Assembly: GCF_022682495.2 (NCBI RefSeq)
Contig: NC_071388.1
Coordinates: forward strand, 11,871,171 to 11,935,170
DNA length: 64,000 bases
Source of the DNA: Desmodus rotundus
Taxonomy: Eukaryota; Chordata; Mammalia; Chiroptera; Phyllostomidae
Direction of reading: 5' to 3'
The position numbers and the translations under genes are program-made. Within the stretch, counting starts at the first letter, position 1; each line of letters opens with the position of its first letter. Under the pieces are notes generated by a model. The model was not told the origin of the DNA. It searched no databases and saw only the letters and a list, made by a program, of their open reading frames with translations. This document shows positions 3,236-63,805 of the stretch, piece by piece.

Positions 3236-3443
3236 TAAAAAATATTTTATTTATTTATTTTTAGAGAGAAGGGAAGGGAAGGAGGAAGAGAGGGAGAGAG
3301 ACATCAATGTGTGGTTGCCTCTCACTCGCCCCCTACTGGGGACCTGGCCTGCAACCCAGGCATGTGCCCTGACTGGGAATTGAACTGGTGAACCTATGGT
3401 TCTCAGACCCGCGCTCAATTCACTGAGCTCCACCAGCCAGAGC
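3236..3443 (-). mobile_element. VES-type tRNA-derived bat SINE, minus strand
   Basis: Read on the minus strand, the element starts with gctctggctggtggagctca at 3443, and its B-box region is ggttcaccagttcaattccc. It continues through cagtcagggcacatgcctgg and ends in a TAAATAAATA-rich tail. This matches bat VES SINEs, which are RNA polymerase III transcribed and mobilised by LINE-1. A 14-bp TSD, ttgtttttcttttt, lies at 3222-3235 and 3444-3457, which fixes the borders and shows retroposition. The 5' CCCTGG head is mutated to GCTCTGG. Confidence 0.9.
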
Positions 3444-10734: not shown

Positions 10735-10862
10735 TATGGAAAATGTAGAATTTAGTGAACACACAATACAACACACAAGTGATGTTATAGAATTGTACAC
10801 TTGAAACCTATATAATTTTATTAACCAATGTCACCCCAATAAATTCAATAAAAATTGGGAAA
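10735..10862 (+). mobile_element. LINE-1-type 3' terminus, copy 1
   Basis: It contains agaattgtacacttgaaacc, tatataattttattaaccaa, tgtcaccccaataaattcaa and then an AATAAA-type signal and an A-rich end. The same sequence occurs at about 16180 and 63740, so it is a dispersed repeat ending in a poly(A) tail. I assign it by memory to a laurasiatherian L1-type 3' end. The repetition inside the window is direct evidence. The family name is not. Confidence 0.6.
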
Positions 10863-16039: not shown

Positions 16040-16232
16040 TCAGACTTGGTACGTGATAGCATTGGGAGCAGAAGTGGGCAAAGGGGCAATAAATGGGGAT
16101 GGAAAGAGACTTGTTTGGGTGGTGAGTGCACAATGCAGTGTGCAGATGATGTGTTACTGAATTGTACACGTGAAACCGGTATGGTTTTATTAACCAATGT
16201 CACCCCCCCAAATTCAGTAAAAAACGTTACAG
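16040..16232 (+). mobile_element. LINE-1-type 3' terminus, copy 2
   Basis: From gggcaataaatggggatgga through tgcagatgatgtgttactga, attgtacacgtgaaaccggt and ttttattaaccaatgtcacc this is the same repeat end as at 10735 and 63685. It extends about 90 bases further upstream and ends in a C-rich then A-rich tail. It is diverged from the other two copies. Confidence 0.6.
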
Positions 16233-25085: not shown

Positions 25086-27010
25086 GTAGACATGCTTAAC
25101 ATGGGTGAGATTATAATAAATAAATGGATAAACAGAGAAAAAGGACAATGCAAGTTTTAATATAAATAAAATTTATGATAGAAGGCCTTTCTTTTAAACT
25201 CTGAAGTATAATATTTATCTCTTCATATCTTTCCTTTTCACAAGTATGTTTAATTCATACTTTATGATGTAACAAAATCTGTGACTTTAATTTTGGCTGA
25301 CATACTTTTTAAACACTCCCAGGGAAAATTAATTGTTTACCCAAGTGCAAAAAAAGAAAAGATGGATAATTAATATGCATATTTTTATTTTACTTACCTT
25401 CTTATGAGCCCAAGAGTAATTAATATAGATATAAAGTAATCACAATTAGTACATAAACTTTAGATGTTATTTGAATAATTATTATTTTCAAATATACTGC
25501 CATACCTAACTTGTTTATCCCTGAAGCTATCTTAGAAGCCAAATACATCTGAGCAAAAGCTAAGAGGCAGTAACATCTATAATTTTGGTTAGATATGATC
25601 ACCAAAACTAAAAATTCCATTATTCTAGAGAGGATTCTAAATTTCTTTACAGCCATATTTATGGGCTAATGATGTTGCTAACCCTCGTTTAATGAAACAG
25701 TGTTATGAAACAGATAAATACTCTAAATGAGACCACAACTGCCAGAAAAAAATGCGGTAATAAAGGAGAGAAAGTTTGGGGCATGTGGCCCATTCCCTTT
25801 TGGAGCCACCTACAAAGCCTGAAGACATAGCTGCCAGAATGTGATTAATAAAGAACCTGGCCTGCTGAAGAAATAATGCCAAATACAGTTGCGCTGTATG
25901 GGTTGACTACTGGGTCCAATCAGAAGCTCTTAAGTAATCTGAGAAGATTTTGTGCTGGGCTGCTGTGTGCTGCCCTGTTTTTCAAGTTCAGCGTAGTTGA
26001 GACTTGAAGGCTGGCTTATTCACTTTTATACAGTGAATATGAAATTCCGTCTGAAAATGCAGACAATTGTAACTGAATAACAATAAAATAAATAAATATA
26101 TAAACCAACCAAACAAAATAACAAAGTGTTGAATTTCTTCAGGAAAATATTTAAGCAAGGTATGAGGTATAATCCTGGCCCAACGTCCAAAATATTAAAA
26201 TAAAATAAATTTGTTAGTTAACTACTGTTAAATGTTAAACCTTGTCTATTACTTTTTGGGGGGGGAACTTTGCTCATTTTGTAACATGTAGTTTAAGAGA
26301 AGTAGAGGGCATTCCATTCCTAAGTAGATCTAGCATGAATTTAATGAATTCACTAGAAGGTTTTCCTGGAGCTTCTAAATAATACTGATAGCACTTTGTT
26401 TCATCGGCACAGCCTATGTTATTGGAGGATGAAAACCTTAGCATCTAAAACACATATTCCCATTTGATTTTCACGTGACTGTATAATGTGCAGTAGCTGA
26501 GAAAGGTCACCCAATAGGCAACTGTGATTTAACAAGAGGTAGAATTCATATCTTTGTGTAACCCAAAACATTATTATCAAATTTTGTGTAAGCTTGCACA
26601 GCAAAATTTTAAAAAGGTTTTCTTTTTATTTCTTATTTAAAAAAACAAATACAAATTCTTTCCGTGAGATAGGGTTTAGATATTCATTTCCTCCTTATTA
26701 ACATTCTTTATGTTCCCTGTGAACCTTCAATTTCAACGTGAAATGTACAGAGATCTGAATTTTTATTCATGATAATATTTATTAATGATAATATTTTGTT
26801 ATAATTCTCTTAAATAGCATACCTGGTCTATATGAGGGAAAAGCTTCTACACTGCCTTACTTTAGCATTTATTTAGAAATTTGGAGTCACGTTTTTAATT
26901 ATTGATTGTTTAAGATAGTAACAACTAAATATTTTCACAATGTTTCATGAGTTACAATTCTGAAAGTGAAATAAATGTACATATCAATAATTGTACAAAT
27001 CAGATCAAAT
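25086..27010. other. Mostly unassigned AT-rich DNA with a possible MIR
   Basis: I see no gene. The sequence at 26440-26570 (cccatttgattttcacgtga, ctgagaaaggtcacccaata, ggcaactgtgatttaacaag, aggtagaattcat) may be a minus-strand MIR. The stretch 25740-26060 is GC-balanced without repeat landmarks and could be a conserved non-coding segment. Confidence 0.35.
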
Positions 27011-27025
27011 TAAATATAATGTGCT

Positions 27026-27383
27026 ACATTATGCTAAGTGAAATAAGCCAGGTGCTGAAGGACAAATACCATATGATCTCACCTATAAGTGGAACCTAAT
27101 CGACAAAACAAATAAGCAAGCAAAATATAAGCAGAGACATTGAAATAAAGGGCAAACTGACAGTATCCAGAGGGGAGGGGGGAGGGGATAAGGGAGGAGA
27201 AAGGGGGAGTATCATCAAGAAACATGTATAAAGGACACATGGACAAAGCCAAAGGGGGGGTAGGATCAAGGGTGGGAGGTGGGGATGAGTGGGGCAGGGG
27301 GGACTGGTGGGGGGAAAATGAAGACAACTGTATTTGAACAATAAAAAAAAGAGAGAAAGAAGAAAATAAAAAATAACAAAAAA
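27026..27383 (+). mobile_element. Bat LINE-1 3' end, 5' truncated, with TSD
   Basis: It begins acattatgctaagtgaaata agccagg, passes through aaataccatatgatctcacc and a purine-rich G-rich 3' UTR (27170-27215), then ataaaggacacatggacaaa, the second G-rich block, and aacaataaaaaaaa with an impure A-rich tail. The flanking duplication taaatataatgtgct / taaatataatgtact (27011-27025 and 27384-27398, one mismatch) sets the borders. It is a 5'-truncated, L1-mobilised insertion of a fairly young bat subfamily. It contains no complete ORF. Confidence 0.9.
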
Positions 27384-27398
27384 TAAATATAATGTACT

Positions 27399-28767: not shown

Positions 28768-28893
28768 ATAAAGGACACATGGACAAAGCCAAAAGGGGGG
28801 GTGGGATTGAGGGTGGGAGGTGGGGGTGGGCGAGGAGTGGGATACTGGTGGGGGGAAAATGGAGACACCTGTACTTTACAACAGTAAAAAAAG
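28768..28893 (+). mobile_element. Bat LINE-1 3' end, short copy
   Basis: From ataaaggacacatggacaaa gccaaaagggggg through gattgagggtgggaggtggg to actttacaacagtaaaaaaa this repeats the last 130 bases of the 27026 element. It is severely 5' truncated. Candidate flanking duplications (agtaaaaagaaaag and agtaaaaaaagag) are low-complexity and uncertain. Confidence 0.85.
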
Positions 28894-38538: not shown

Positions 38539-38746
38539 GAAGATTTTATTTATTTATTTTTAGAGAGAGGGGAAAGGAGAGAGAAAGAGAGGGAGAGAAA
38601 CATCAATGTGTGGTTACTCCTCACATGCCTCCTCTGGAGACCTGGCCTGCATCTGGATCCCAGGCATGTGCCCTGCCTGGGAATCGAACCAGCTATGCTT
38701 TGCATTGCAGTCCAGTGCTCAACCCACTGAGCCACACAATCCAGGG
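38539..38746 (-). mobile_element. VES-type SINE, minus strand, nested in mariner
   Basis: The minus strand starts ccctggattgtgtggctcag at 38746, with B-box region ggttcgattcccaggcaggg. It continues cacatgcctgggatccagat (a small insertion relative to other copies), and ends in taaataaataaaatc. A probable diverged TSD, tgatatgttttttt / tgatgtgtgtttttt, flanks it. It sits inside the mariner, so it is younger than that insertion. Confidence 0.9.
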
Positions 38747-44633: not shown

Positions 44634-44748
44634 AGCTTGCCCTCCTTATATGCGATTATTTTTGTGGGTGGGATAGCTTGTTGCTATGCTTAGAAACCCT
44701 GCTCCTCTGGTAAATATGAGTGTACAGTTTTTTCTAAGAAGTATAGGT
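44634..44748 (+). repeat. Direct repeat copy 1 (about 115 bp)
   Basis: agcttgccctccttatatgc, tatttttgtgggtgggatag, cttgttgctatgcttagaaa, ccctgctcctctggtaaata recur in the same order and orientation at 45618. The two copies share roughly four bases in five. The pair may be terminal repeats of a short element, a tandem duplication, or two independent copies of an unrecognised repeat. Confidence 0.75.
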
Positions 44749-45123
44749 TAATGTTGCTGTCAGTACTTAGCTGGTTATTAATAAAAGAAAGAGAAGCAAA
44801 GAGACTGAGACACTGAGCTTAATAAAGCAGGAAACTTGAGAATATTTGCTGCACCAGGAGGCTACAGCTTTTCCCTCCATGGGATCATAGCATTTTTCAG
44901 CCGAGGGGATTAACACTCTTCCCCTCCCTGCTCTGGTACGAGACGGTTGCGGTGGGGGGCCTGGCACAAGTGGAGGTGCTTGACCAAAGAGGCCTGTCAG
45001 TCTAACTAGAGTGTGGGCCTATCAAAAGCCCACAAAAATTTGAGAAATCAATTGGTTCTTTTGAAAAGGCATCTAGTCTGTCCAAAGCCCAAGCTAATAT
45101 ACTCCCAGGGGAAAAAAGAAGCG
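44749..45123. other. Unassigned DNA between the direct repeats
   Basis: GC-balanced sequence including a CpG-bearing patch near 44890-44960. No recognised gene or repeat. Confidence 0.35.
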
Positions 45124-45617: not shown

Positions 45618-45733
45618 AGCTTGCCCTCCTTATACATGGCTATTTTTGTGGGTGGAATAGCTTATTGCTATATTTAGTAACTCTGCTCTTCTGATAAACA
45701 TGGACATATAGGTTTTTCTGAGGAATATAGGTT
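45618..45733 (+). repeat. Direct repeat copy 2 (about 115 bp)
   Basis: agcttgccctccttatacat, ggctatttttgtgggtggaa, tagcttattgctatatttag, taactctgctcttctgataa, with ggtttttctgaggaatatag at the end, is the partner of 44634-44748. Confidence 0.75.
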
Positions 45734-46539: not shown

Positions 46540-46765
46540 GCCCTGGCTGGTGTGGTTCAGTGGATTGAGCACTGACCGGCCTGTGAACCAAAGGGTCTCT
46601 GGTTCAATTCCCAGTCAGGGCACATGCCTGGGTTGTGGGCCAGGTCCCTAGTAGTGGGGTGTGTGAGAGACAACCACACATTGATGTTTCTCCCCTTCTG
46701 TTTCTCCTCACTTCCCCTCTCCCTATAAATAAATAAATAGATACATAAATAAATAAATATTAAAA
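46540..46765 (+). mobile_element. VES-type SINE, plus strand, with TSD
   Basis: Sense copy: gccctggctggtgtggttca, A box tggttcagtgg (46553-46563), B box ggttcaattcc (46601-46611), then cagtcagggcacatgcctgg, a pyrimidine-rich body and taaataaataaatagataca. TSDs aacaatcagtca (46528-46539) and aacaatcaatca (46766-46777) differ at one base. Complete and fairly young. Confidence 0.95.
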
Positions 46766-50099: not shown

Positions 50100-50319
50100 T
50101 TTTTTATATTTTTTAAAGATTTTATTTATTTGTTTTTAGGCAGAGGGGAAGGGAGGGAGAAAGAGAGGGAGAGAAATATCGATGTGTGGTTGCCTCCTGT
50201 GTGCCCCGAACCAGGGAACCTGGCCTGCAACCCAGGCATGTGCCCTGACTGGGAATTGAACCAGTGACCCTTTGATTCTCAGGCCAAAGCTCAATCCACT
50301 GAGCCACACCAGCCAGGGC
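50100..50319 (-). mobile_element. VES-type SINE, minus strand, with 17-bp TSD
   Basis: The minus strand starts gccctggctggtgtggctca at 50319, with B box ggttcaattcc, then cagtcagggcacatgcctgg, gttgcaggccaggttccctg, and a taaataaaatctttaaaa tail. The TSDs accacttgagattttta (50083-50099) and accacttgaaattttta (50320-50336) differ at one base. Intact and close in sequence to the 46540 copy. Confidence 0.95.
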
Positions 50320-52971: not shown

Positions 52972-53264
52972 GTAAGTAAATGCCTTTCTTCAATCTACCA
53001 CTTTTCACTAGTAGTCTAAACATTGTTTCTATAAAAAATTTTTCAGAAAGTTCTATATATTAAAAAGGAAATACTGCTGTGTAAACAAAGTAATAATTTT
53101 CCCCTGGAAATCGAGATTGGGGATAAGTAATTGAGTAAAATTAACACTTAACTAATGTGTTTTCTTTATAATTTATTAAAAAGTTTAAAGCTTCTGAGGC
53201 AAGAACAGCTCATTTATTATGTTCCAGACCAACTTTATTATAATCAACTAACTTAATGTAACAT

Positions 53265-53660
53265 TCTGATATTCTTGGTTTTATTATTTATTTAAATTTT
53301 TATTGTTATTCAATTACAGTTGTCTGCATTTTCTCCCCATCCCTCCACCCCACCCCAGCCAAACCCACCTCCCTCCCCCGCCTCTACCCTCCCCCTTGGT
53401 TTTGTCCAGGTGTCCTTTATAGTAGCTCCTATATACCCCTCTCCCCACTGTCCCCTCCCCAATCCCCTCTGGCTATTGTTAGATTGTTCTTAACTTCAAT
53501 GTCTCTGGTTATATTTTGTTTGCTTTTTTCTTTTGTTGATTATGTTCCAGTTAAAGGTTAAATCATATGGTATTTGTCCCTCATCACCTGGCTTATTTCA
53601 CTTAGCATATGGCCATACCACTCTGAATACGCCCGATCTCGTCTGATATTCTTGGTTTTA
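53265..53660 (-). mobile_element. Chimeric LINE-1 3' end / 5S rRNA insertion with 19-bp TSD
   Basis: The TSD tctgatattcttggtttta occurs exactly at 53265-53283 and 53642-53660. Between the copies, 53284-53610 is the complement of the bat LINE-1 3' end: tttattgttattcaattaca gttgtctgc at its A-tail end, C-rich 3' UTR, cacctggcttatttcactta gcatat at the truncation point. Positions 53611-53647 are a 5S rRNA piece on the + strand, opposite to the L1. On the sense (minus) strand the target reads gatt|aaaacc, an L1 endonuclease-type site. The last six bases of the 5S piece coincide with the start of the TSD. Confidence 0.9.
53611..53647 (+). pseudogene. 5S rRNA fragment (5' part)
   Basis: ggccataccactctgaatac gcccgatctcgtctgat matches the first 40 or so bases of vertebrate 5S rRNA (starting at about base 7 of the gene). 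Only about three differences are seen: ctc for ccc, and ata for acg within the helix II strand. It lacks the internal promoter, which lies further downstream, so it cannot be transcribed as 5S. It is part of the L1 insertion, not an independent gene. Confidence 0.9.
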
Positions 53661-54644
53661 ATCAGAAATAGCACTTTTGCATTCGTACCAAAATAGGAAT
53701 AAGCGATGTGTAGAAATTTTACCTCTGAGAAAGAACGCATGCACGCATCCATCATCTAACTGGCTGGGTAGTTTGCTTTTATAATTGTGGGTAGACCACA
53801 TCTTCCTAACTCAATTTTCTTTTAAGATTTTAGAAAAATATCTTCAACATAGCTACAGCAGAAATCAGAATACTTGCTTAAAAATATTGCTAATAATTCG
53901 CTATAACTCTGTGGGTAAACTGACCTCTCTGACAAAGGGAGCTTATTTATGATATCTCTTCATAGGATTCTTGCTAGTCAAAGTTGTATAAAAAATGAAA
54001 TATATCACAGTAACAGACATAGAATGGTTACTTAACTCATATTCGTAGATCATTTAAGATAAAAATCAACTTTACAAACCACTCATGGGTTTCTAGTTGG
54101 AGTGTTTTATTTATTAGGTATATTTATACTCAGTAGAAAAACTATTTAAGAATCTTATATGAAACCAGTGTACATGGTTTACATTCATTTTAAAAGTATA
54201 TATTCTATTTAATTCTTTTTTTTCATTTCTTTTTTGGCACTGCCTAAAACCAGGTGATATTATACCCTGAAAAATGAATTGGATACTGAGCTTTTCCAGC
54301 TGTGAAAAAAAATAACATTCCAAACTTTTTAGACACTCTATATAAGAAAAACATTTTTTAATGGCAGATAAATATATACCATGGCTCTTAACTATCTCTA
54401 GGCAAGTAGTCTTATTTCAAATTGTTCTTAAAATGTTTGTGACACTAACTAGAGTTTAGTGAGTCAAATGGGAATGTCTTTTGACTTCATGGCTGGTTAC
54501 ATTTAAACACTTATCTTTTTGCAAAACAAGAAAATATCCTCTATGATGAAAATTGATAATATCCAGTATTAAGTTATGATAGTCCATATTCTGAGTAGAA
54601 ATAAGCCAATTATCATTTAATCTATTTATTCTTAATAGTATTTA
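53661..54644. other. Unassigned AT-rich DNA
   Basis: No recognised feature. Confidence 0.35.
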
Positions 54645-60113: not shown

Positions 60114-60310
60114 GAGTTACTGTATTTTTTAAATTCATTTTTTATTGTTGTTCAAGTACAGTTGTCTCCATTTTCAGTCTGTGGTGCCCTCCCCATCCCC
60201 ACCTCCCACCCTCGATCCTACTCCCCTTTGGCTTTGTCCGTGGGTCCTTTATACATGTTCTTTGAGAAGGATAATAGGGGATAAAAGAGGAAAAGCCATC
60301 CGAGTTACTG
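60114..60310 (-). mobile_element. Bat LINE-1 3' end, minus strand, probable 5' inversion
   Basis: 60123-60262 is the complement of the bat LINE-1 3' end (tttttattgttgttcaagta cagttgtctcc, then the C-rich block, ggctttgtccgtgggtcctt tatacatgttctt). The next 39 bases (gagaaggataataggggata aaagaggaaaagccatc) are purine-rich. They resemble the sense strand of the same 3' UTR (ggaggggataagggaggaga), i.e. inverted. gagttactg flanks the whole at 60114-60122 and 60302-60310 as a TSD. Confidence 0.7.
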
Positions 60311-63684: not shown

Positions 63685-63805
63685 ACTTGAGATAGTGAAC
63701 ACAAAACACAATACAGAGATGATGTATTATAGAATTGTATACCTGAAACCTATATAATTTTATTAACCAATGTTACCCTAATACATTTAATAAAAATAAA
63801 AATAT
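63685..63805 (+). mobile_element. LINE-1-type 3' terminus, copy 3
   Basis: acacaaaacacaatacagag atgatgtattatagaattgt, atacctgaaacctatataat tttattaaccaatgttaccc followed by a taataaaaataaaaat tail. This is the same repeat end as at 10735 and 16040, and the cleanest of the three. Confidence 0.65.

Follow-up and report, generated by a model that had tools for sequence, protein, structure and literature searches.

The DNA analysed here, a stretch of 64,000 nucleotides referred to below as the window, contains at positions 53265-53660 a composite insertion in which a LINE-1 (L1) 3' end and a fragment of 5S rRNA lie side by side between two copies of one target site duplication (TSD). Along the plus strand, the first TSD copy (53265-53283) is followed by the reversed L1 3' end (53284-53609), the 5S fragment (53611-53647) and the second TSD copy (53642-53660). 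The last 6 of the 37 bases of the 5S fragment are at the same time the first 6 of the second TSD copy, which leaves 31 bases of 5S (53611-53641) outside the duplication. This anatomy can be read directly from the bases.

Target site duplication and L1 part

A repeat search of 53100-53800 found the two TSD copies, each 19 bp long and with a spacing of 377, to be identical at 19 of 19 positions. The copy at 53265-53283 borders the 3' (tail) end of the L1, the copy at 53642-53660 stands at the 5S end, and the single-copy sequence of the target site is TCTGATATTCTTGGTTTTA. One duplication surrounds both the L1 and the 5S parts, and no second TSD lies between them in the range searched. When the flanks are joined at the tail side (...GGTTTTAATCAG...), the plus strand reads GGTTTT/AATCAG, which is TT/AAAA on the L1-sense strand and places an L1 endonuclease (EN) site at 53277-53283 on the minus strand. 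The original prediction had described an exact 19-bp TSD enclosing both parts rather than the L1 alone, and a target context of the L1-endonuclease type; all of this is seen in the bases. Because the 19 TSD bases are identical, the insertion is likely to be fairly young, with a chance of zero differences of 14% at 5% change per copy and of 1.8% at 10%.

The L1 part (53284-53609, minus strand) is a 5'-truncated 3' end with an A-rich tail, which appears as a T-rich run at its left edge on the plus strand. It was delimited by means of other L1 copies in the window: at 27030-27350 there is an L1 3' end with which it shares 79.2% identity over 322 aligned columns, and shorter copies match portions of its 3' end at 60126-60253 (72.5%), 28768-28890 (73.4%) and 26053-26098 (89.8%). 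The element and strand given in the original prediction were retained, and its length of 327 bp was corrected to 326 bp because base 53610 is unsupported by the L1 copy at 27030.

Another L1 3' end of the window, at 27007-27398, has its own TSD, with 17 of 19 positions identical (27007-27025 and 27380-27398), and begins about 4 bp or less from the point in the L1 where the focal copy breaks off. The common 5' end of these two independent insertions may be due to chance or may mark a place at which L1 reverse transcriptase stops. A pattern built from the L1 copies of the window had 0 matches in a viral contig collection. In an Rfam search with 501 bases and E up to 10, NEAT1_2 matched within the L1 part at 20.3 bits (cut-off 60), which was rejected as a chance match.

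The 5S rRNA segment and its junctions

The 5S segment, which begins at 53611, stands next to the 5' end of the L1 fragment, which reaches to 53609. The segment was compared with a reference sequence that we take to be that of vertebrate 5S rRNA. In this comparison, 53611-53647 on the plus strand corresponds to nt 7-43 in sense direction, with 34 of 37 bases identical. Scored without gaps (+1/-3), the match reaches 25, whereas the best score elsewhere in the window is 11 and none of 100 simulated first-order Markov windows exceeds 14, and the 37 bases of plus-strand 5S rRNA that had been predicted were confirmed in this way. An Rfam search with 66 bases returned RF00001 weakly, with 13.8 bits, a gathering score of 38 and an E of 0.76, together with two matches to unrelated families that were weaker than the 5S match; the low 5S score arises because a third of the 120-nt model gives little score. 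The whole window had no Rfam match at the gathering threshold, 5S was not among the matches of the 501-base search (E up to 10), a 59-base piece of the reference 5S had 0 matches in one collection of genome contigs, and ARAGORN with bacterial settings found no tRNA.

Within nt 7-43 there are three differences from the reference 5S, at nt 18, 24 and 25. All are C-to-T or G-to-A changes, the last two of them lying in a CpG. Should nt 4 be the first base of the 5S part, T53610 may be a fourth change, from C6 to T, again at a CpG. The type of these changes, some of them at CpG, suggests that the 5S piece decayed after insertion, as far as a reference that may not equal the 5S genes of the host allows this comparison.

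A position-by-position comparison with the reference 5S places the L1/5S junction at 53608-53610, where TA (53608-53609) fits the L1 as well as 5S nt 4-5. The 5S is antisense to the L1 and truncated, with its 5' side at the junction, and covers nt 7-43, or nt 4-43 if T53610 derives from C6. It ends internally at nt 43, without the remaining 3' side and without a tail. At this end, TCTGAT (53642-53647; nt 38-43) is visibly common to the 5S and the target end, as a run of exactly 6 bases; when positions of the window were paired at random with positions of the 5S, 0.087% of 400,000 pairings gave a run of at least 6. These six bases had been put forward as the priming microhomology, a proposal that their exact extent and their rarity by chance support, and they would mark the site of second-strand priming on the 5S.

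Probable twin priming on two RNAs and its precedents

We consider it very probable that the locus records one L1 insertion, made by target-primed reverse transcription in which twin priming used L1 RNA and 5S RNA. L1 endonuclease would have nicked the plus strand at TTTT/AA, and the nicked plus-strand end would have primed cDNA on the tail of the L1 RNA, with synthesis stopping about 326 nt in. With the minus strand nicked some 18-19 bp away from the first nick, its 3' end (...ATCAGA) would have base-paired with UCUGAU (nt 38-43) in 5S rRNA and would have been extended toward the 5S 5' end, reaching approximately nt 4-7. The two cDNAs would have been linked, perhaps through the 2-bp TA, and the staggered nicks would have been filled in to give the TSD. 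In this sequence of steps, the 5S would come to lie antisense to the L1 because extension runs from a minus-strand primer on 5S RNA. We infer that there was a single event, that its steps took this order and that the template of the 5S part was RNA and not DNA.

Twin priming is favoured because the 6-bp match sits exactly at the position expected for the second primer, because the TSD lies outside both parts with the EN motif at the tail side, and because the 5S has the orientation opposite to that of the L1 and breaks off internally at nt 43, its 3' side missing. It is further favoured because published cases of antisense 5S/L1 chimeras, inverted snRNA/L1 chimeras and 5'-inverted L1s fit. The original prediction had likewise proposed priming by the second target end on 5S RNA, which is the best explanation of the locus.

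Twin priming of 5'-inverted L1 insertions was reportedly treated by Ostertag and Kazazian in 2001, and the study said to be cited for 5S/L1 chimeras is that of Buzdin et al. from 2003. A survey of the human genome counted 253 chimeras of known types, 10.5% of them with 5S (Law and Burns, 2026; PMC13174262). Among the 27 human 5S/L1 insertions, 20 have TSDs of 7-17 bp and 14 have an EN motif; their 5S pieces typically run antisense to the L1, with the 5S start as the common beginning and with truncation at 46 and 90. U6/L1 chimeras have the same orientation in 98.3%, and twin priming is suggested as the cause of antisense chimeras; the word stem microhomolog is absent from the main text of the survey (PMC13174262). 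It had initially been assumed that the small RNA usually has the same orientation as the L1 and that the opposite orientation of the 5S is therefore unusual. According to the survey, the assumption applies to U6 but not to 5S, and an antisense 5S is the typical arrangement.

The present insertion resembles these human cases in that the 5S lies at the 5' end of the L1, antisense and with its 5' side at the junction, and in having a TSD and an EN motif, whereas the host is probably a bat (PMC13174262). Two further differences count against the reading: the TSD of 18-19 bp compares with 7-17 bp in the human 5S/L1 insertions, and the 5S begins at nt 4-7 instead of at the 5S start.

Twin priming was also proposed for inverted U5/U1/U2/U6-L1 chimeras, among which there are U5 pieces complementary to the target (Doucet et al., 2015; PMC4476161). 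As in those chimeras, a 3'-truncated small RNA lies here opposite to the L1 inside one TSD, with an EN site in the L1 direction, the U5-target complementarity being their counterpart of the TCTGAT match; unlike them, the present case involves 5S rRNA and not an snRNA. The Myotis row in a table of that paper is part of a survey of U6 copies, not of 5S. In 5'-inverted L1s, too, the second target end primes internally on RNA via microhomology and gives an inverted 5' segment, but in them a single L1 RNA serves both primers, whereas here the second would use 5S (Kojima, 2010; PMC2912911). In that series, microhomology is absent from only 28 of 605 5'-inverted L1s and amounts to 2-5 bp in about 70%, so that the 6 bp found here exceed most of them, which counts against the reading.

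The insertion joins a class already catalogued in human DNA, for which the twin-priming mechanism is already in print, and adds to it one clear, well-preserved case, probably from a bat. No bat 5S/L1 chimera was recognised in the open-licence literature by titles and abstract starts, among the matches listed. The case bears on how the recurrent 5S end near nt 46 comes about, through cleaved 5S fragments or through annealing of the target end to a loop in uncut 5S RNA. The human chimeras are cut off at 46 and the present piece at 43, in both cases near loop C, and the human survey raised targeted processing of 5S to account for its end point of 46 (Law and Burns, 2026; PMC13174262). We put forward, tentatively, the possibility that the end is set by annealing of the target to the exposed loop C of intact 5S and not by prior cleavage, and that the same event has recurred in bats and primates. 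The 6-bp TCTGAT match at nt 38-43 is suggestive in this respect, as it would be the direct footprint of a 5S end set by annealing.

Competing explanations and other repeats

An unlikely competitor of twin priming is the capture of filler DNA, in which the open 5' end of a 5'-truncating L1 would have been joined via TCTGAT to a free fragment of 5S cDNA or DNA. A 6-bp microhomology fits end joining equally well, and the same anatomy and scar would be left; however, filler capture predicts no fixed orientation or ends, whereas in human 5S/L1 chimeras the 5S typically lies antisense and its ends recur at 46 and 90 (PMC13174262), and the present piece, with nt 7-43, is near this antisense pattern. 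A history of two events, in which an L1 inserted next to an older 5S pseudogene or a 5S retrocopy arrived at the 5' end of the L1, appears highly improbable. Adjoining sequential insertions do occur in genomes, but here both pieces lie inside the 19-bp TSD with no second one between them (53100-53800), the 5S has neither its 3' side nor a tail, and the exact abutment would need luck. Least probable of all is that the L1 reverse transcriptase jumped to an antisense transcript of 5S, or that it copied a pre-formed chimeric RNA, even though U6/L1 chimeras are explained by jumping or RNA ligation (PMC13174262). U6/L1 chimeras have the same orientation and a usually full-length small RNA, whereas the 5S here is on the opposite strand with 37 of about 120 nt; a jump would make the 5S run with the L1 unless antisense 5S RNA had been used, for which nothing speaks, and it leaves the 6-bp target match unexplained.

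SINEs derived from 5S in fruit bats are the subject of a published paper. An element of this kind was rejected at the present locus, where the 5S is directed away from the tail side and comprises just nt 7-43. The window does hold SINE copies of another type, which resemble a consensus that we take to be that of the bat family Ves and which are the main support for the probable bat host. Four of them are near full length (3240-3440, 38540-38746, 46541-46739 and 50115-50318; 77.7-83% identity to the consensus), and there are partial copies in addition. Another repeated family is found at 10753-10855, 16144-16223 and 63693-63797, with matches of 72-105 columns that are 79-87% identical between copies. 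A direct repeat of 116 bp, at 44634-44749 and 45618-45733, is 80% identical between its two copies, which lie approximately 1 kb apart.
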